Shown here one piece after another: positions 7,033 to 28,829 of a DNA stretch of 28,956 bases (the first letter of the stretch is position 1; the number at the start of each line of letters is the position of its first letter). Source of the DNA: a virus; the IMG/VR virus record IMGVR_UViG_3300037342_000050, positions 1-28,956 of that record; one strand, written 5' to 3'. The notes under the pieces were generated by a model that was not told the origin of the DNA, did no database searches, and saw nothing but the letters and a program-made list of their open reading frames with translations. Both the position numbers and the translations under genes were made by a program.

Positions 7033-7901
7033 GTGTTTTGCGGGATGAACGTGCTTTGCGGGTTGGCTGACAGGGTAACAGACGGGGGCGCCAAGGCAAG
7101 AGCCGAGATGGTCTGTACGTGCGCTTGGATGGTGGCCGCCTGCGTGGCAATCGTCGCCACCGCAGCCGTATGCGCCGCCGTCACGGTGTTCAGCTTCTTT
7201 ACGGTCGAGAGGTGCGTGAACAGCCCGACGTGGGCTAGGACGAAGATGATGGCGCCAACGACAGCCGACCAGAACACCCACTGGCCGTACTTGGCGGTGA
7301 GGAGGGACAGCTTGGAAAGAAGGTCCGTCTTCTCTGCGGTCGTCTCCTCCAGTTTCGAGGTCGCCACCGCAACCGAGCCTGTGAGCGTGCCTATCTGCGC
7401 CGTCGCCGCCACGCGGTCCTTTACGTCCACGGCAAGCGCGGCGGTCTTGGCTTCGTTGTCGCCCTTGACCTCGGCAAGCTGCGCCTGTAGGTCGGCTATT
7501 AGCTGCGCCTGCCTCGCCTCCGTCGCGGCAGCCAGGGCCTCCCCCTGCGCCTCTGCGAGGGCCGAAAGCGGGTCGTCCGCGCCGATGGCGAGGGTATTGA
7601 ACTGGAGGGCCGCAGGGACGTCGGGAGGCACCGCCTTGAGCGCCCGCCCGGTCGCAACGTGGTAGGTGCCGCGTATCTGGGCCTGCCTCGCAATGTCGGC
7701 CTCCTTGGACTTGCGATCGGCGTCCTCACGCGCAATCGCCGCAGCCTGAGCCGCCTCCGCGCTCTTGAGGGAATCGACCGTGCCGGCGAGGGCCACAGCC
7801 TGCGTGTGCGCGTCCTTCAACTGGCTGCGCTCCTTCAAGGCGGCGGCGGAGGACCCCCCGAGCATCAGCACAAGCGCGGCGATAAGGAGGTCGATGCCCA
7901 T
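7029..7901 (-). CDS. Two-segment membrane coiled-coil protein, 290 aa
   Basis: About 290 residues starting at ATG 7901, which follows the methyltransferase stop with 1 nt between (TGA C ATG). The longer open frame to 7964 is a shadow of that gene. A hydrophobic helix spans residues 3-22, a long Ala/Lys/Glu/Asp-rich helical region runs from about 23 to 205, and a second hydrophobic helix with Trp and Phe (Trp-Val-Phe-Trp start) lies near 207-228. The C-terminus is Thr/Ala/Val-rich. No enzyme motif is seen. With its downstream 86-aa neighbour and the 149-aa protein it makes a run of membrane coiled-coil proteins. A role at the host membrane during entry or lysis is inference. Confidence 0.7.
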   Translation of the reverse strand: MGIDLLIAALVLMLGGSSAAALKERSQLKDAHTQAVALAGTVDSLKSAEAAQAAAIAREDADRKSKEADIARQAQIRGTYHVATGRALKAVPPDVPAALQFNTLAIGADDPLSALAEAQGEALAAATEARQAQLIADLQAQLAEVKGDNEAKTAALAVDVKDRVAATAQIGTLTGSVAVATSKLEETTAEKTDLLSKLSLLTAKYGQWVFWSAVVGAIIFVLAHVGLFTHLSTVKKLNTVTAAHTAAVATIATQAATIQAHVQTISALALAPPSVTLSANPQSTFIPQNT

Positions 7902-9294: not shown

Positions 9295-9828
9295 TTACTG
9301 GAACTGGAGGAGGGCGTTTACAAGTTCCACCTGCTTGCCCGAGTTGGAGGGGTCGACGATCTCGATGAGGAATATGTCGTCGCCCCCCTGTGCGTTGGTG
9401 GCCAGACTCAACCACGGGCCAATTTCGCATTCGCCTGAGACAGCCGTGAATGTGGCGTACACGTCGTTGGAGTATTGCGCGAGCCATTGGTAATCGGCAA
9501 GGTTTCCATCCTTGAAGCTGGTCGATCCGTAGGGGATCGGGACAAATCGGACGATGACCTGGACGCCGGGGACCGGCGCAAAGGTCCCGCTGCCGGTGGA
9601 CACAAACACGACCCGGACCTGCGAGAAATTTCCGGTGTTGAACACCTGCGATCCGGTGGGAAGGCCGCCCGTGAGGTATAACGGCTGCGGAACATTTGTG
9701 AGCTTCGGCGTCAGGACGGTTCCTGCCGGCGGAGTCATCTGTAGCGACTGGAGGGCGGACGCGCTTGGAGAGAAAGCCGCGAGCATGGTGGCCCCGGCGA
9801 GAAGAACTGACCTTAGTATGTTTTTCAT
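9295..9828 (-). CDS. Exported protein with Sec-type signal peptide
   Basis: A 177-residue protein beginning with a classical signal peptide: Lys/Arg at the N-terminus, a hydrophobic core at residues 8-19 and a Ser-Ala-Ser-Ala cleavage site near residue 25. The mature part is mostly beta-rich, with Gly, Val and Pro-rich strands and a single Cys, and has no motif I recognise. Sec signals are unusual for virion proteins, so this may be a secreted or periplasmic effector, or a mis-evolved fibre-associated protein. It is flanked by the glycosyltransferase and the 778-aa fibre gene. An AGGAG-like sequence lies about 14-18 nt before the ATG, too far to be convincing. Confidence 0.7.
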   Translation of the reverse strand: MKNILRSVLLAGATMLAAFSPSASALQSLQMTPPAGTVLTPKLTNVPQPLYLTGGLPTGSQVFNTGNFSQVRVVFVSTGSGTFAPVPGVQVIVRFVPIPYGSTSFKDGNLADYQWLAQYSNDVYATFTAVSGECEIGPWLSLATNAQGGDDIFLIEIVDPSNSGKQVELVNALLQFQ

Positions 9829-9889
9829 GGCGCGCTGACGCTCCTACGGCGGCGGAATCAAGTCAAGCACATTTCCGGCTTAAATAGAA

Positions 9890-12226
9890 TCAGGCTTGGA
9901 ACTGATAAAAGTGGCGCCGGTTTACCCCACCTATGTTTGAATCAAAGATAATGGCCGGGAAAGCCACCGTCGCCGGGAATGCCGCTGAGGTCGCTGACCA
10001 CACGCCTTGACCAAGCAATAACGGGTTGTTGCTTGATCCCTGCCCAAACCCGGGCATGAAGGTCGAGACCTGGGGAAGTGAAAATAAGACTATGCTGGAC
10101 ACGATAATCGAACTCGCTGAAGCGCCCCCGGCGGTGGATGATGAAAAAGACTGAGCCATCCAATATTCCCCGGCTGACAAAGTTCCCGTTCCTCCAAACG
10201 AGAGATTAACAGCTCCAATAAAGCTGGCATTTGTGAGCCCTGTGGTCTGGCCGCTAAAGGAGGCGCTCGAGCTTCCGTTGGTGCTCCCGGTTTGCCACCC
10301 GTAGCTCATGGAAATGCTGGTAGCAGAGCATGACCATGCGCCGGACATCGTTGAAGAAGTGCTGAACAACAGCGATAGGTTCGTGCTGCCCGCCGCGCCG
10401 GTCACGGAGCGCGAGTATATCGCAAGCGCATTCGTTACTCCGAGTTGCCCGCTTGTGCCCACCGCGCTGCTCGCGCCGAACATATTTATTGAACCCTGCT
10501 GGTTGATCCGCGAGAATGACACGGCCACGGGCAGAACTATCGGATCGAAATATATTGTCCCTGAACCTAATGCGGCAGACGCATTTACCGCGATCAATGG
10601 CATAGGTTCAAATAACGAGGCGGTGTACCCCGATACAGCACCGGTCACGGTCGAACCGTTCAGCCCAAAGCTGATCCCGTTCGAATTTGAGAAGACCACG
10701 TTCGAGAGGTTGGTCGAGGTGGAACCGGCGCTCACATTGATCGCCGTGAGACTCGTCGCAATCGACGCCGTGAGGGTGCCCACGCCCGCCCCTGTGCTGA
10801 GACCGAAGGATACGCCGTTGCTGTTGTTGAACGTGATGGCCGAAAGGGCATTCGACGTGCCGCCTCCAGCCGAGACGTTTAGCGCGTAGCTCCCCGTCAG
10901 CGTCCCCACCCCCGCTCCGGTGGAGAAGCCGAAGCTCACGTTGTTGCTGTTCGAGAACGTCACGGCGCTCATGCTGGCGCTGCTGGCCCCGGCGCTCATC
11001 TTCACGCTGCCCTGCGTGGAGGCGACGGTCACGCTTGCCGTCATCACCGAGTTGTTCGAGAGCCCGAACGTCACGTTGTTCGAGTTGCTGAAATTGATCG
11101 ACGAGAGGCTGAGGCTCGTACCCGCCGCAGAGACGACGATGGCGTGGCTTGCGGTCATCGTGCCGACGCCAGCGCCGGTAGAGAGCCCGAAGGTCACGCC
11201 GTTGCTGTTGCCAAAGGTCACAGCCGAGAGTGCGTTCGAGGTTCCGCCTCCCGCCGACATATTTAGGGCAAAGCTGCCGGTCATCGTCCCCGCACCGGCG
11301 CCCGTGGACAGGCCGAAGGAGACATTGTTGGAATTGCTGAACGTCACGGCAGATAGCGCCGCCGAGCTTGCCCCGCCGCTGACCGTGATGCTGCCTTGGC
11401 TGGACGCCACGGTGGCGCTGGCGGTCATCACCGAATTATTGGAGAGGCCGAAGCTGACGTTGTTGCTGTTGCTAAACGTGATCGCGCTTAGGCTTAGGCT
11501 GGAGCCGCCAGCCGACACGAACACGTTGGTCAGGCTTGAGGCGACGGTCGCCGAGGCGGTCAGCGTACCGGCGTTGATACCGAACGAGACGTTGTTGCTG
11601 TTGCTGAATACGAGGGAGGTCTGCGCCGCAACGCTGGCCGTGACGGTCGAGACGTTCGTCCCAAACGACACGCCGTTGGAATTGCTGAACACGTAGGCTG
11701 TCTGCGCCGGGGCTGCCGAGAAGCTGGCGGTCAGGACCGAGTTGTTCGACATGCCGAAGGTGATCCCGTTGGAGTTCGAGAAGACGACCGTTCCGCTGCT
11801 GGCAAGCTGCGTCCCGGCGGACAGCGCGGCTCCGCCTCCGCCTCCGCCCACGATGGAGGCCGTCATGGTGGACCCGCTTAGGCCGAAACTCACCCCGTTC
11901 GAGTTGCTGAAGAAGACCTGCCCCGTGGCGGGGGAGGTCACGCCGCCCGCGACAAACTGGACCGCAGGGTTCTGGTGCCAGCTCTTGACGTTGCTGACCG
12001 CGTTGTAGTCGGCCGGGAGAAGGCCAAGGGCGTCCGCCTGAAGGGTCCACGCCTGAAGGGTGTTCGTCGTCGAATCAACCCAGAGCTTCAGGACCGGCGG
12101 GACGAGGAGGACGGTCGAGACGTTGATGAGGTCCGTCTGCGAACGCACGCCCGGGTCCACCGTCGGCGTGTTGTTCGTGAACGCCGGGGGCGGATTGTAG
12201 GCTGCGCTGCCGGGCCGGGTGTCCAT
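9890..12226 (-). CDS. Large repeat-containing fibre/appendage protein, 778 aa
   Basis: A 778-residue surface-fibre-like protein. The first 100 residues are a head domain with Thr/Pro/Trp content. Residues 104-530 are eleven copies of a roughly 20-residue core (Phe-Ser-Asn-Ser-Asn, then Gly or Asn, Val-Ser-Phe-Gly, Leu-Ser, then Ser/Thr-Met/Val-Thr-Ala-Ser), set in longer Ser/Gly/Ala-rich units that also recur. The last 248 residues form a non-repetitive Ser/Gly/Ala-rich domain, plausibly the receptor-binding or trimerisation tip. Asn/Ser/Thr/Gly content is extreme, and no catalytic residue is seen. The neighbouring 340-aa protein carries a twelfth copy and a related C-terminal domain, so the two are paralogues. 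Role as tail or head fibre is inferred. The stop is at 9890. Confidence 0.8.
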   Translation of the reverse strand: MDTRPGSAAYNPPPAFTNNTPTVDPGVRSQTDLINVSTVLLVPPVLKLWVDSTTNTLQAWTLQADALGLLPADYNAVSNVKSWHQNPAVQFVAGGVTSPATGQVFFSNSNGVSFGLSGSTMTASIVGGGGGGAALSAGTQLASSGTVVFSNSNGITFGMSNNSVLTASFSAAPAQTAYVFSNSNGVSFGTNVSTVTASVAAQTSLVFSNSNNVSFGINAGTLTASATVASSLTNVFVSAGGSSLSLSAITFSNSNNVSFGLSNNSVMTASATVASSQGSITVSGGASSAALSAVTFSNSNNVSFGLSTGAGAGTMTGSFALNMSAGGGTSNALSAVTFGNSNGVTFGLSTGAGVGTMTASHAIVVSAAGTSLSLSSINFSNSNNVTFGLSNNSVMTASVTVASTQGSVKMSAGASSASMSAVTFSNSNNVSFGFSTGAGVGTLTGSYALNVSAGGGTSNALSAITFNNSNGVSFGLSTGAGVGTLTASIATSLTAINVSAGSTSTNLSNVVFSNSNGISFGLNGSTVTGAVSGYTASLFEPMPLIAVNASAALGSGTIYFDPIVLPVAVSFSRINQQGSINMFGASSAVGTSGQLGVTNALAIYSRSVTGAAGSTNLSLLFSTSSTMSGAWSCSATSISMSYGWQTGSTNGSSSASFSGQTTGLTNASFIGAVNLSFGGTGTLSAGEYWMAQSFSSSTAGGASASSIIVSSIVLFSLPQVSTFMPGFGQGSSNNPLLLGQGVWSATSAAFPATVAFPAIIFDSNIGGVNRRHFYQFQA
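10637..11917 (-). repeat. Eleven-copy FSNSN repeat array
   Basis: DNA encoding residues 104-530 of the 778-aa protein. Each copy contains a sequence encoding Phe-x-Asn-Ser-Asn-x-Val/Ile-Ser/Thr-Phe-Gly. The complementary plus strand shows recurrent GTTGCTGTT and GTTGGAATT runs. Copies 5 and 8, and copies 6, 7, 9 and 10 (with a Ser-Thr-Gly-Ala-Gly insert), fall into two subfamilies, suggesting growth by duplication of blocks of two or more units. A single copy is found at residues 72-81 of the adjacent gene. Confidence 0.8.
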
Positions 12227-17238: not shown

Positions 17239-17281
17239 TGAGGGCCGTCTTAGCGTTCACTTCCCTGCCTTAACCGGGTGA

Positions 17282-25133: not shown

Positions 25134-25459
25134 GTCCCCGACAGACGGGAGAGTTCGCCAAGGATCTGCTTCTCGCCTTCGTCAACGAGGTCGATCAGTT
25201 CGCGCAGGACCACGCATTGCGCGCGCAGGATTTCGCGCTCCTCCGGCGTGCAGGGCTTCTCCTTCGTGTCCGGCGGGTGGTAGATGAGGCTGGAGGGGCG
25301 CGTGTTGTACGCCTCGACCGCCTGCGCGAACTTGTCCCTCACGCGGCGCATGAAGTAGCGGTCGAAGGCTTCCGTCCGCTGGAGCGTGCGGATGTCCTCA
25401 AGGTCGCGGCGGGCCGAAATCTCCTGCGCCCGCAGGTTGTCAGCGTCCTGCTGGGTCAT
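25106..25459 (-). CDS. Small coiled-coil protein, 117 aa
   Basis: A 117-residue, mainly helical protein. An N-terminal charged helix (Gln-Asp-Ala-Asp-Asn-Leu-Arg-Ala) is followed by an Arg/Glu/Lys helix, a short Tyr/Pro loop with one Cys, and a Leu/Val/Glu-rich coiled-coil-like C-terminal helix. No family is recognised. The start ATG overlaps the GT9-like gene stop (ATGA at 25456-25459). The 3' end overlaps the plus-strand Gly/Pro-rich gene by 28 nt, and no terminator hairpin was seen between them. Confidence 0.65.
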   Translation of the reverse strand: MTQQDADNLRAQEISARRDLEDIRTLQRTEAFDRYFMRRVRDKFAQAVEAYNTRPSSLIYHPPDTKEKPCTPEEREILRAQCVVLRELIDLVDEGEKQILGELSRLSGTQFSPSGPS

Positions 25460-26601
25460 TCCCTCGCCAGCTTCTTGACCTTGGCGATTACGGTCTCGGG
25501 CTTGATGCCCGCCAGAACCTCGCAGAGGCCCTGCTCCCTTGACGGGCAGTTCTTCGGGAACTTGGCGCGCACGGCGCTCCCGCCCTTCTCATGGAAGAAG
25601 CATGGGCTGCATTTGCCGCGCCCCTGGATGCCGAAGACCGACGGCGAATAGACCGTCCGCAGCGCCCACGGGAACGGGCCAAAGAGCCCCACGGAGGGCA
25701 CGTCCAGCGCGCCTGCGATGTGGATGAAGGCCGAGTCGCTGCCAAGGAAGCAGCTTGCGCCTTGGATCACGGCGGCGGTCTTTCGGAAGGAGAGCCCATG
25801 GCTGGACAGGTTGCGCACGTTCGGGCCGTCGGGAACGCGCTCAAGGTTCTCCCTGCGTCCGATCAGGTACACCTCCCACGCCGTCTCCTTCTGGAACGCC
25901 TCGACGATGGTCGCCAACTGCTGCATGGGGTACACGCGGCAGAGGCCCGACATGGAGGCATCGACCTGAATGCAGAGGCGGCGCACGTTCGGGATGCGCG
26001 GGTACTGGACCTTGGCCCACGCGGCTTCGTCGTCGCTGACGCGGTACTCGGGCTTTCGGTCGCTGGTCTTCGGCGTCCACTCGCTCACGTCGTCCTTCGA
26101 CCCCTTGAGCCACGCCTTCTTCGGGTGGGCGATGCCGATTATTTCCGCGAACACGTCGGCCATCGGGATGTCCTCGGCGCGGGGGTTGTTCTCGATCGCG
26201 TTCTCAAGGAACACCCAAGCGTCGTACTTCGCGTGCTCGGCCTTCGTGAGGGGATAGCGCACGATGTGATCGACGTAGGGGAGCCCCTTCATCACGTCGC
26301 CGTAGTCGCGCATGGTCGCCACCGTGAGGACGACCCTCGGCCAGCGCCGCTTCATCTCGCGCAGGGCGGGGGTGAGATTGGTAAGGTCGCCAAAGCCCCC
26401 TACGCGCACGATGACGACCGACTCCCCGTTCCAGTCGGCATTGTCGTCGAAGGGGCGGCTCTCAACGAGGGGCGTCATTTTGCCCGCCCCGCATAGGTTG
26501 ATGAGCTGCGCCCCCGTGATGTCCTCGCAGAGGTATTCGCCGGGCTTGATCGTCTGCTCTGCGTCGATGACTATTTCTTCGGGGAGGGTGACAACGTGCA
26601 T
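25456..26601 (-). CDS. GT9/heptosyltransferase-like glycosyltransferase
   Basis: A 381-residue protein with the features of glycosyltransferase family 9 (heptosyltransferase). The N-terminal domain has Val-Gly-Gly-Phe-Gly-Asp-Leu-Thr-Asn-Leu-Thr-Pro (67-78), the usual acceptor/donor-site loop. The C-terminal domain has Gly-Ser-Asp-Ser-Ala-Phe-Ile-His-Ile-Ala-Gly-Ala-Leu (287-299) and a Gly-Leu-Phe-Gly motif, with cysteines at 331, 334, 352 and 360. GT9 enzymes transfer sugars to glycans such as lipopolysaccharide core, so a role in modifying a phage or host surface glycan is likely but the acceptor is unknown. The leader holds the second copy of the 16-nt motif shared with the other minus-strand glycosyltransferase. 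No Shine-Dalgarno. Confidence 0.75.
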   Translation of the reverse strand: MHVVTLPEEIVIDAEQTIKPGEYLCEDITGAQLINLCGAGKMTPLVESRPFDDNADWNGESVVIVRVGGFGDLTNLTPALREMKRRWPRVVLTVATMRDYGDVMKGLPYVDHIVRYPLTKAEHAKYDAWVFLENAIENNPRAEDIPMADVFAEIIGIAHPKKAWLKGSKDDVSEWTPKTSDRKPEYRVSDDEAAWAKVQYPRIPNVRRLCIQVDASMSGLCRVYPMQQLATIVEAFQKETAWEVYLIGRRENLERVPDGPNVRNLSSHGLSFRKTAAVIQGASCFLGSDSAFIHIAGALDVPSVGLFGPFPWALRTVYSPSVFGIQGRGKCSPCFFHEKGGSAVRAKFPKNCPSREQGLCEVLAGIKPETVIAKVKKLARE

Positions 26602-26629: not shown

Positions 26630-26645
26630 GCTGGTCAAGCCGGAA
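26630..26645 (-). repeat. 16-nt motif, copy 2
   Basis: Plus-strand GCTGGTCAAGCCGGAA, 15 of 16 bases identical to 9271-9286. It lies 28 nt before the GT9-like start. On the minus strand it includes CCGGCTTGAC, where CTTGAC is -35-like, but no good -10 box follows. Confidence 0.5.
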
Positions 26646-26693
26646 ACTTTCGTTGACAGCGGCAGTCCGGCAGAGCACCTTCCCGGCGTTCTT

Positions 26694-26996
26694 TGATCCC
26701 TGAATTGAACGTAGGTGGGTAAGCGATCCTTGCCAGACGACGCAGCGCCAGAGTGGGGCGCGGCCCTCCCATGGGCGCTCTGGTTGCTACCATGTCGCTT
26801 GGCAAGGAAGTACCCGCAGCGGAGGCCAGCCCTAGGACCGGGGCGCGGCGTCTGTACAAACGTGGTACCGGTCCCAAAACGGTCTGTACGGGTGTCCGCT
26901 ACGGTGGCCCCTCCAACTAGACGCAGCAGCACGCGCTGGAAATCAAGACGTGACAGCCCGCAGGTGTAGCGCCCTGCACGCTCAATTCAGGGATCA
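26694..26996. ncRNA. Candidate structured non-coding RNA (about 303 nt)
   Basis: No convincing gene lies between 26602 and 27039. TGATCCCTGAATTGA (26694-26708) and TCAATTCAGGGATCA (26982-26996) form a perfect 15-bp closing helix, with CGT (26710-26712) and ACG (26978-26980) adding 3 bp past one mismatch. Inside, further stems are visible: TCCTTGCCA/TGGCAAGGA (26727-26735/26800-26808), continuing through G-U and A-C positions to CGAC/GTCG; CCAGAG/CTCTGG (26748-26753/26778-26783); GGACCGG/CCGGTCC (26835-26841/26868-26874); an 8-bp bulged stem at 26884-26904 with a GTGT loop; and GCAGG/CCTGC (26960-26964/26973-26977). Such nesting is typical of large ornate RNAs. A TTGACA at 26653-26658 could be its -35 box, but the -10 is poor. 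The strand is unproven. Confidence 0.55.
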
Positions 26997-27003
26997 ACCC
27001 ATC

Positions 27004-27039
27004 TTGACTCGCGCCCCGCGCCTGTCGTAGAACGACCCC
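27004..27039 (+). promoter_or_regulatory. Promoter for the 73-aa gene, possibly leaderless
   Basis: TTGACT (27004-27009) and TAGAAC (27028-27033) are separated by 18 bp and resemble -35 and -10 boxes. The expected transcript start, six or seven bases on, would fall at about 27040, which is the A of the start codon. That would give a leaderless message, in keeping with the absence of a Shine-Dalgarno before this gene. Confidence 0.45.
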
Positions 27040-27261
27040 ATGGCTGACAACTGGATCGCCAAGTCGGGCGTCGATAAGCCCGGTCACAAGGGACGTCTTC
27101 ACCGCGCCTTAGGCGTGCCATCGGACAAGCCTATCCCGTCAGGCAAGCTCTCCGGCGCCCTCAAGTCGGCCAACCCCCACCTGCGCCACATGGCCCGCTT
27201 CGCCGCGAACGTGAAGGGGCTTGGCGGCAAGCGTAAGACGAAGCGGCTGTTCGGGAGGTAG
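27040..27261 (+). CDS. Small basic phage protein, 73 aa
   Basis: A 73-residue, highly basic protein. The N-terminal Ala-Asp-Asn-Trp-Ile-Ala-Lys segment, the His-Lys-Gly-Arg-Leu-His-Arg-Ala-Leu-Gly-Val-Pro motif and the Pro-Ser-Gly-Lys-Leu helix resemble a widespread family of small phage proteins of unknown role (beginning with Asn-Trp-Ile-Ala and containing Leu-His-Arg-x-Leu-Gly-Val-Pro). The C-terminal half is rich in Arg/Lys/Gly and suits nucleic-acid binding. No Shine-Dalgarno precedes the ATG. A -35/-10 pair upstream would place the transcript start at the ATG itself. Confidence 0.7.
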   Translation: MADNWIAKSGVDKPGHKGRLHRALGVPSDKPIPSGKLSGALKSANPHLRHMARFAANVKGLGGKRKTKRLFGR

Positions 27262-27483
27262 TCGCTCGGGCGAGCCGCCTCCATCTCTTTCGCGTGCGCT
27301 CGTCGGGGTAGTCTTCCGGCAGCGTTTGCCTTTCCACGGGGACAAGCATGAGGCGGAGCACCTTCATTGGCGATTATCCCTTTGACGCATAGAATAAAAT
27401 TGCCGAATTTGCGGAATTTCTGTGCAAGCCGTTCTTGTTAAACCGCAAAGGTTTATGGTGCAATTTCTCGGCTCCTTGATGTA
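27262..27483. other. Non-coding spacer, partly AT-rich
   Basis: This stretch has no credible gene. The first third is GC-rich; from about 27370 it becomes AT-rich, with AAACC-gcaaa-GGTTT as a small stem near 27440-27455. The minus-strand open frame through it (27744 to 27364) has an implausible composition and crosses the stem-loop array, so it is not called. No clear promoter was found. Confidence 0.4.
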
Positions 27484-27701
27484 CTCCGCGCTCTCGGAAT
27501 ATGTTTCCGATGTCGGAGATGATTGGGAAATCGAAAGGGGGTGCAGGGCCTGCATTCCACGCAGGAGACCGCACCCCCAAGAGATAACTGGATACGTACT
27601 CCAGCCACCATCTGCCGACACCGGCCTCCAGCATTCCACGCTGGGGGCCGCTCTGTTTCTAACGGCGGCACACATCGCTTGACCGCCAATCGCTGTCAAG
27701 C
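27484..27701. ncRNA. Candidate structured RNA with five stem-loops
   Basis: Five consecutive stem-loops fill 218 nt. H1: CTCCG/CGGAG (27484-27488/27514-27518) around TCGGAA/TTCCGA with loop TATGT. H2: GGGGGTGC/GCACCCCC (27537-27544/27571-27578) around CCTGC/GCAGG with loop ATTCCAC. H3: CTGGA/TCCAG (27588-27592/27600-27604) with loop TACGTAC. H4: an 11-bp stem with one G-U pair (27622-27632/27640-27650), loop ATTCCAC. H5: GCTTGAC/GTCAAGC (27677-27683/27695-27701). H2 and H4 have different stem sequences yet identical 7-nt loops, the pattern expected of conserved RNA-binding loops. The element could also be a DNA recognition site for a protein. Confidence 0.5.
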
Positions 27702-27712
27702 AAGATGCCTGC

Positions 27713-27877
27713 GTGAAGGAGCCTCCCCCTCTCGGCCATCGCAAGAAGCACGTCGCGGTTTACGAGACCGGACAGCAGGCCCAGGTTAACTTCGCCGCCA
27801 GCTTCAAGGCCATCATGGCGTCGCGGGTCAAGCTGGTGCGAGCGGGCAGCAAAAGGGGTAGGGCGACGGGGGCCTGA
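27713..27877 (+). CDS. Possible small basic protein, 54 aa
   Basis: A GTG-started frame of 54 residues with a basic N-terminal part (His-Arg-Lys-Lys-His) and a basic C-terminal tail. It is preceded by an in-frame TGA at 27680-27682, and the next gene begins 18 nt after its stop. No Shine-Dalgarno is visible. The sequence looks protein-like, but it is short and the call is uncertain. Confidence 0.3.
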   Translation: MKEPPPLGHRKKHVAVYETGQQAQVNFAASFKAIMASRVKLVRAGSKRGRATGA

Positions 27878-27894
27878 AGGAGTTGCGGGGTCTC

Positions 27895-28134
27895 ATGAAA
27901 ATGAGAATACTCAACGGAATCCTTTTGCTGGTAGGCACGGCAATTCTTGTGAGGGTCCTGCTCAATCCACCAACCTTCTCATTGATGGTGCGGGATGTGA
28001 ACAACTACCCCGTTTTTCGCAGGGAACCGGAATACGGCAATTGGGCCGGCCAAATTCTCGCAGTAATAGTTGCCACAGGCGTAGCCTGTTACCTTACGCG
28101 AAAGAGAGATACCGGAGATAGGCCGCCGCGGTGA
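27895..28134 (+). CDS. Small two-pass membrane protein, 79 aa
   Basis: About 79 residues with two hydrophobic segments, near residues 5-24 (Ile-Leu-Asn-Gly-Ile-Leu-Leu-Leu start) and 54-71 (Gly-Gln-Ile-Leu-Ala-Val-Ile-Val start), separated by a polar loop containing Arg-Arg-Glu-Pro-Glu-Tyr. The short basic tail ends in Arg-Pro-Pro-Arg. This suits a small inner-membrane protein. The frame opens at TTG 27883, but ATG 27895 is preferred because an AAGGAG sequence (27877-27882) lies 12 nt upstream. The GC content is lower here. The TGA lies inside the 13-bp stem described at 28127-28159. Confidence 0.55.
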   Translation: MKMRILNGILLLVGTAILVRVLLNPPTFSLMVRDVNNYPVFRREPEYGNWAGQILAVIVATGVACYLTRKRDTGDRPPR

Positions 28135-28159
28135 GGCGCTTGCGTTGCGCCTCACTGCG
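28127..28159. terminator. 13-bp hairpin overlapping a stop codon
   Basis: Bases 28127-28139 (CGCGGTGAGGCGC) pair with 28147-28159 (GCGCCTCACTGCG) with a single G-U pair and a 7-nt loop, TTGCGTT. The TGA of the membrane-protein gene (28132-28134) lies inside the stem. No T-tract follows on either strand, so it may be a factor-dependent or bidirectional terminator, or a protecting hairpin. Confidence 0.45.
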
Positions 28160-28183
28160 TGGACGGTGAATTATCTTGCCTGC

Positions 28184-28198
28184 ACCCCATGCCGGGGT
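28184..28198. other. Short hairpin containing the left 13-nt repeat
   Basis: ACCCC (28184-28188) pairs with GGGGT (28194-28198) around ATGCC. The 13-nt sequence CCATGCCGGGGTC found here recurs at 28808-28820. Confidence 0.4.
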
Positions 28199-28199
28199 C
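28187..28199 (+). repeat. 13-nt direct repeat, left copy
   Basis: CCATGCCGGGGTC. An identical copy is at 28808-28820, so a roughly 610-bp stretch with its two small genes is flanked by short direct repeats. Confidence 0.45.
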
Positions 28200-28213
28200 T
28201 AAGTGCGCAATTC

Positions 28214-28588
28214 ATGGGCTTTATTTTAGAATCTCCAGAATGCGGAAGTGATAATGCGGCAGCAGAACATCCAATTGGTCTATCGGCTCCAACTGAACAC
28301 GGCAGCGAAGATTGGGCATTTCAAACACTCCTTCGCGGGGCATCAGCGAACGGTTTAGGGGGAATAATTCTGTGGGAAAGAACCGAGCCTGCGCATCCAT
28401 GGGCTCGGATGCTGTGCCTTTGGCTATTAATGAACCGTCCCGCCCTCGATACGTACAGGGCAACCTTGGCGCTGAATCGGATTCCCGACCCTTCCGCTGG
28501 CGTTCGCTTTCTGGATTACTTCCATCCATCCGTCATCGAGTATTTAGCCGCGCAACAGAGGGCCGCAAGCGAACAAAAGGCGGTCTGA
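28214..28588 (+). CDS. Hypothetical protein, about 124 aa
   Basis: The frame opens with TTG at 28145, but ATG 28214 is preferred because the earlier codons cross hairpins at 28127-28159 and 28184-28198. From there about 124 residues. The first 40 residues are Ser/Glu/Gly-rich with one Cys, the middle contains a Trp-Ala-Arg-Met-Leu-Cys-Leu-Trp-Leu-Leu segment, and the C-terminal half is a helical stretch with Asp-Tyr-Phe-His-Pro-Ser-Val and a Gln-Gln-Arg-Ala-Ala-Ser-Glu tail. It reads like a genuine soluble or regulatory protein, but I recognise no family. No Shine-Dalgarno is visible. Composition in this stretch differs from the structural genes (more AT), which may indicate a recently acquired accessory gene. 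Confidence 0.5.
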   Translation: MGFILESPECGSDNAAAEHPIGLSAPTEHGSEDWAFQTLLRGASANGLGGIILWERTEPAHPWARMLCLWLLMNRPALDTYRATLALNRIPDPSAGVRFLDYFHPSVIEYLAAQQRAASEQKAV

Positions 28589-28608
28589 AAAACCAAGGTG
28601 CCTGCTAT

Positions 28609-28773
28609 TTGGCGGCTGAGGTTTTGCCTGTCACTTGTCAGGGTTGCCGAAATACCGGATGGCTTCGAGTTTTGACTCGGGGAGAAGGGCTGTGTTCATG
28701 CCGTGAGAGTGGCTGGAATGTTCTATGCGTCAAGGACGTAATTACCCCTTCATTGCTAACAGGGCGGTCGTAA
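28609..28773 (+). CDS. Small zinc-ribbon-like protein
   Basis: About 54 residues in the frame ending at TAA 28771-28773, probably starting at TTG 28609. A weak AAGG lies about 10 nt upstream. The motif Cys-x2-Cys-x2-Thr-Gly-Trp, followed 8-9 residues later by Cys-x-Cys-Arg, matches the zinc-ribbon pattern frequently seen in small phage and helicase-loader proteins. A single zinc site is likely. Its function is unknown. The start is uncertain because the frame overlaps the 124-aa gene further upstream. Confidence 0.4.
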   Translation: MAAEVLPVTCQGCRNTGWLRVLTRGEGLCSCRESGWNVLCVKDVITPSLLTGRS

Positions 28774-28799
28774 AGGCCGTCCATGCAAGTTCATAAAAG

Positions 28800-28829
28800 C
28801 GGCATCACCATGCCGGGGTCGCTACCCGG
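28800..28829. other. Overlapping small hairpins between convergent genes
   Basis: CGGCAT/ATGCCG (28800-28805/28810-28815, loop CACC) competes with CCGGG/CCCGG (28813-28817/28825-28829). The region lies between convergent genes and may be a weak bidirectional terminator, but no T-tract follows. The 112 bases from 28774 to 28885 otherwise show no gene. Confidence 0.3.
28808..28820 (+). repeat. 13-nt direct repeat, right copy
   Basis: CCATGCCGGGGTC, identical to 28187-28199. Together they bracket the two small accessory genes at 28214-28773. Confidence 0.45.

Follow-up and report, generated by a model that had tools for sequence, protein, structure and literature searches.

The window, the whole stretch of viral DNA that was analysed (28,956 nt; IMG/VR record IMGVR_UViG_3300037342_000050), carries a 303-nt element between a glycosyltransferase family 9 (GT9) gene and a small gene that is read in the opposite direction. 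The features of this locus are as follows.

25456–26601, minus strand: GT9 gene, a conserved neighbour (Pfam PF01075, E 4.7e-12)
26633–26638, minus strand: TTGACC, which belongs to the promoter of the divergent GT9 gene and is conserved in relatives without the RNA
26653–26658, plus strand: TTGACA, likely −35 element of the RNA, near the TTGAC spacing of the family and within extra DNA absent from the relative G007
26676–26681, plus strand: CACCTT at the −10 position after a 17-nt spacer, a poor match to TATAAT that a consensus scan missed
26693–26712, plus strand: 5′ strand of closing helix P1, a 20-nt arm (19/20 complementary in the window, 20/20 in relatives)
26694–26996, plus strand (likelier than minus): candidate structured noncoding RNA gene (fold z −3.1; 1 and 3 substitutions against 13.5 and 19.0 expected; no Rfam match and no coding support)
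26715–26817, plus strand: long interrupted hairpin P2 of 103 nt, with a 7-bp base, a 15-bp middle and an 11-bp upper stem (domain z −3.73; pairing probability of the middle stem 0.94)
26818–26977, plus strand: 3′ part with alternative, poorly determined stems (z +1.45; stem probabilities 0.2–0.8), holding the variable sites 26874 and 26881
26978–26997, plus strand: 3′ strand of closing helix P1 (C at position 26981 in the window, T in relatives)
27004–27009, plus strand: TTGACT, which belongs to the promoter of the small gene downstream and is conserved in G007
27040–27261, plus strand: small gene for a 73-aa basic protein, 72% identical in phages without the RNA

A sequence-only reading of this DNA had described a perfect 15-bp inverted repeat closing the element. 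This repeat is present at 26694–26708 and 26982–26996 and extends further, by one T-A pair outward and, after an A26709/C26981 mismatch, by three more pairs, so that P1 comprises 19 of 20 possible pairs in the window (16 perfect bp, one mismatch and 3 more). All 20 pairs are matched in both homologues of the element, which were found only in the IMG/VR contigs G001 (3300048819_000116, 65.6 kb) and G002 (3300036790_000196, 65.0 kb). These copies are 98–99% identical to the element, with 1 and 3 differences, respectively, and each is the single copy in its genome, at the same place as in the window. The longest arm pair within 600 nt measures 20 in G002, against a maximum of 16 in 50 dinucleotide shuffles of this 65-kb sequence.

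Further copies were sought by several routes. A DNA similarity search of phage and plasmid records gave no match to the element. Scanning for the 15-mer of the arms returned 60 contigs, only two of which hold both arms; a covariance model finds nothing in the others, which look like chance 15-mer matches, and a scan with an internal 15-mer returned G001 and G002 only. No further copy was detected in 80 loci around relatives of the small gene or among relatives of the glycosyltransferase, head protein and portal. The covariance model represents three near-identical sequences on the plus strand, and diverged relatives could escape its negatives. Its matches in L211, L236, L170 and L172 were rejected as weak (11.9–15.4 bits) and partial (49–177 nt); read directly, the L211 stretch is an unrelated short hairpin. 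The search for homologues in metagenomic phages suggested by the sequence-only reading yielded two copies and no diverged one. One 5.4-kb contig of a Verrucomicrobia metagenome-assembled genome encodes a head protein of 34% identity (L242, 488–1972), which may be a weak hint to the host group; 289 genomes of that phylum, searched with stricter filters and without a positive control, gave no element.

Fold, coding potential and constraint

On the plus strand, the 303 nt fold to −141.3 kcal/mol against a shuffle mean of −121.7 kcal/mol, and none of 100 dinucleotide shuffles was as low. The element is thus more stable than dinucleotide-shuffled sequence, with a signal that comes from P1 and P2 only: the interior without P1 is of average fold stability overall, and the 160 nt of 26818–26977 are less stable than their own shuffles. 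At least five further stems had been proposed inside the closing helix. This description suits the 103-nt hairpin (z −3.7) and fails for the 3′ part, where most stems have a low pairing probability. As P1 and P2 alone hold the fold signal, the picture of five nested stems can be trusted for these two only, and the closing helix and the 103-nt hairpin are the sole structural parts of the element that are well supported. Among the three near-identical sequences, with three variable sites, no pair is altered on both sides and yet kept. The two substitutions specific to G002, at 26874 and 26881, turn a C-G pair of the predicted plus-strand structure into U-U; in the minus-strand fold of G002, both sites are unpaired.

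The element matches no known RNA class that was searched. As the sequence-only reading had anticipated in recognising no tmRNA, RNase P, 6S or group I intron signature, the Rfam 15 covariance models (including these four, GOLLD and ROOL) gave no match in the window at the gathering threshold, and the best match once the threshold was relaxed scored 16.4 bits (cut-off 42, E 3.9) and is a chance match. ARAGORN detected neither a tRNA nor a tmRNA, no RNA matching the element was found in the literature, and the longest antisense match in the phage genome was 12 nt, the same as for shuffled sequence.

Most of the element is also spanned by an 84-aa open frame with a GTG start (26715–26969), which is what a protein-coding gene would have in its favour. 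However, this frame has no Pfam match, its start does not lie at the promoter-to-start distance of the family, and both G002 substitutions within it fall at codon positions 1 and 2, in keeping with the earlier view that no gene is credible here. Terminal complementary repeats around one long hairpin would likewise suit a retron-type RNA (msr-msd with a1/a2 repeats), but no reverse transcriptase (PF00078) was found in G000, G001, G002, G007 or G008 by a search that detected control genomes, which argues that the element is not a retron. That it is either a retron-type RNA or a protein-coding gene is therefore very improbable.

The 382 codons of the GT9 gene differ at 17 third positions between the window and G001 and at 24 between the window and G002. 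At this rate, 13.5 and 19.0 changes would be expected in 303 nt, against the 1 and 3 observed (Poisson P 2e-5 and 7e-6, respectively), in a comparison where third positions are imperfectly neutral and exchange between phages may blur the rates. The downstream small gene is far more diverged, with 34 substitutions in 222 nt; the two flanking genes thus differ from each other in divergence and each exceeds the element. Since the element has changed much less than the adjacent GT9 third codon positions, it is constrained beyond neighbouring near-neutral sites, without coding, and has probably been kept by selection. Recent exchange could account for part of the high local identity of the element, but the adjacent gene diverges more.

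Presence, absence and the portal–GT9 junction

The element is missing from a related phage. Two contigs, G007 and G008, match at 99.98–99.99% and represent one phage; together they span a genome of ~65.8 kb that is essentially complete, and G009 is a fragment of the same phage. This genome is colinear with that of the window phage, has an 81% identical major head protein and carries the same divergent GT9 and small genes. The gap between the start codons of these two genes is 88 bp in G007 and 438 bp in the window: both flanking TTGAC motifs are conserved, while the element and its upstream TTGACA are missing. A covariance-model search of G007/G008 gave no convincing copy elsewhere. G007 has a tRNA-Met gene upstream of its giant virion gene (L169, 14578–14652).

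Ten loci, reached through relatives of the portal protein, were compared at the interval between the portal and GT9 genes. This gap is only 46–47 bp in L252, L255 and L260, contains small open frames in L251, L253 and L256, and, in L259, holds an open frame with a tRNA-Met gene (CAT; 7577–7650). The L263 gap appears to be noncoding, and that of L264 combines noncoding DNA with a 106-aa open frame. The small gene and the RNA element occupy the gap in the window phage, G001 and G002. Because its contents vary in this way among relatives, we read the junction as a cargo site, apparently across the phage family, and the element has the form of moron-type cargo: an extra unit between genes that are adjacent in relatives, with a promoter of its own as judged by motif and spacing only.

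Other differences were noted at this junction and elsewhere. Window positions 27262–28805 (~1.54 kb) are missing from G001 and G002, where 27261 joins 28806 directly; the longer open frames of this stretch have no Pfam match, and it would represent more variable cargo. The ~537 nt of apparently noncoding DNA in L263 (7232–7770, equivalent to L246 963–1500) include two TTGACA-type promoter-like sites, one of them TTGACA-N17-TATACT, and a terminator-like hairpin; the fold of this noncoding DNA is not significant, and it possibly holds one or two small RNAs. Window positions 9775–11684 are 68–77% identical to G001 in surroundings of ~98% identity, and perhaps represent a fast-changing or exchanged receptor or tail gene. 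Upstream of the element, a 16-nt stretch (26630–26645) is repeated exactly at 59646–59661 of G002 and 17256–17271 of G001.

The ends of the element had also been considered as possible terminal inverted repeats of a mobile element. The repeats are indeed perfect in the relatives, and some phages of the group carry the element where another does not, as would be expected if these 20-bp repeats bounded a small non-autonomous mobile element. However, the several copies or different sites and the target duplication of a transposable element or MITE are not seen: the element is single-copy in G001 and G002, occupies the same site in three phages, shows no target duplication at its flanks and has no homologue in phage or plasmid records, and the full arm pairs occur in no other viral contig from the arm-pattern scan. 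The extra DNA also takes in ~45 bp of promoter outside the repeats, and P2 is a strong internal hairpin. A DNA structure for replication or packaging fares no better, given that the GC-skew extremum of G002 lies near 29 kb and not 38 kb, and that an essential DNA site would not be expected to be absent from G007. Overall, a DNA element of either kind is quite unlikely.

Two features would be in line with a packaging RNA like the phi29-type pRNA, working with the portal and terminase: the place of the element in the junction after the portal gene, and the long helix between its 5′ and 3′ ends. Such a packaging part is expected family-wide, so its absence from relatives counts against this role: the colinear G007/G008 phage, with its 81% identical head protein and related portal and terminase, lacks the element, which was likewise not found in nine further portal-relative records, several of them fragments. 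The element is therefore not a general companion of the packaging and head machinery with which it occurs, and there is little chance that it is a packaging RNA. More broadly, its absence from so close a relative makes any essential role in assembly or packaging unlikely.

Promoters and strand

A TTGACA had been reported 35 nt upstream of the element, and this motif is present at 26653–26658 (~40 nt before the 5′ helix strand). A consensus sigma-70 scan called no promoter at the element, which led to a spacing rule specific to the family. In 11 of 14 GT9 loci, GCTTGAC is found with its TTGAC 34–37 nt before the start codon, and the loci concerned (L250–L263 and L068) display this lineage-wide pattern with no clear −10. 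In G002 and G007, TTGAC is also enriched 36–41 nt upstream of gene starts, with 8 cases where other bins have ~2. This suggests that family promoters are driven by the −35 element and yield nearly leaderless transcripts. When this spacing is applied to the TTGACA at 26653–26658, the predicted plus-strand start falls at 26687–26690, a few bases before P1.

The proposal of plus-strand transcription agrees with this promoter pattern, but not with the folding energy, which is better on the minus strand (z −4.75 against −3.15), nor with the one substitution that preserves a G-U pair. A functional RNA on the minus strand would lie upstream of the GT9 gene and would be either cut from the structural operon of that strand, whose order is terminase, large virion protein, portal and GT9, or produced by transcription inside it. 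Besides the stronger fold, its high-probability helices are more compact (for example 26895–26902 with 26816–26823, P 0.89–0.96), this is the direction of the portal and GT9 genes, and the sole closing-helix substitution, C26981, is A-C on the plus strand and keeps its pair, as G-U, only on the minus strand. Against this, the extra DNA includes a family-type TTGAC before the plus-strand 5′ end, whereas none precedes 26997 on the minus strand. The GT9 gene has its own promoter motif after the element, which is therefore not a usual GT9 leader. Minus-strand scores of the covariance model are no test of the question, as the model derives from the plus strand. We consider a minus-strand RNA rather unlikely and the plus strand probable, clearly the favoured of the two, although strand is the weakest part of the account.

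A candidate accessory RNA gene and known systems

Strong constraint, a non-random fold and a promoter motif of its own make a structured noncoding RNA, as originally proposed, the best reading of the element. The closing helix as a sequence feature, the position at a cargo site, the fact that a colinear relative lacks the element, and a promoter motif at about the family spacing lead us to favour, with moderate confidence, a moron-type accessory structured RNA gene, carried as cargo at the portal–GT9 junction and transcribed from the plus strand. Several observations stand against this reading: there are only three near-identical sequences, the −10 is poor and no sigma-70 site was called, and the 3′ half is no more stable than its shuffles.

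As an accessory structured RNA gene, the element would belong to a phage lineage that has no close record in the phage collection and would be one of the cargoes of the variable portal–glycosyltransferase junction. The lineage-type promoter (TTGACA, 26653) would give a plus-strand transcript from ~26687–26690, whose ends would close into the 20-bp helix around the 103-nt hairpin and a less defined part of 160 nt. No terminator follows the element, so its 3′ end would probably arise by cleavage at or after the closing helix, or else the transcript continues into the small gene. Rather than serving virion assembly, the RNA would then have a dispensable role during infection, for example in contact with RNA, protein or defence systems of the host. 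It is quite possible, and we put this forward tentatively, that it founds a new RNA family unrelated to any described: dispensable, ~300 nt long, carried as cargo next to the portal gene under a lineage-specific promoter and acting on the host, perhaps as a decoy for defence systems or by binding ribosomes or proteins.

Few phage-borne structured RNAs are known, and the functions of most are open. Here, matched relatives with and without the element make a presence/absence comparison of a single RNA gene possible, and the portal–GT9 site, whose cargo differs from relative to relative, is where further accessory genes and RNAs of this uncultured phage group may be sought.

The sequence-only reading had raised membership of the large ornate phage RNAs, which we do not uphold for an element that is 303 nt long, has no Rfam match and has just two homologues, both nearly identical to it. 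Among phage RNAs of unknown function, GOLLD and ROOL form RNA nanocages and are often found near tRNA islands (PMC12286853). The element resembles them in being phage-borne, structured and without a known protein partner, and a relative (L259) has a tRNA-Met gene in the equivalent junction. However, many GOLLD RNAs exceed 800 nt, much of the fold of the element is ill-defined, and no shared architecture or sequence has been demonstrated. The ends of pRNA pair, and like the phi29-type pRNA the element is a phage RNA gene with paired ends, here near the portal gene, but it is missing from a close relative with the same head and portal genes. Complementary ends and a long hairpin inside are shared with the msr-msd RNA of retrons, whereas the reverse transcriptase is lacking from all five records. 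With phage morons and other cargo genes, the element has in common its own promoter motif, a place between conserved genes, variable presence and a site that holds other cargo in relatives. Morons are usually protein genes, whereas this one appears to be a noncoding RNA, and we would class it as a new candidate family among phage genes for structured RNAs.
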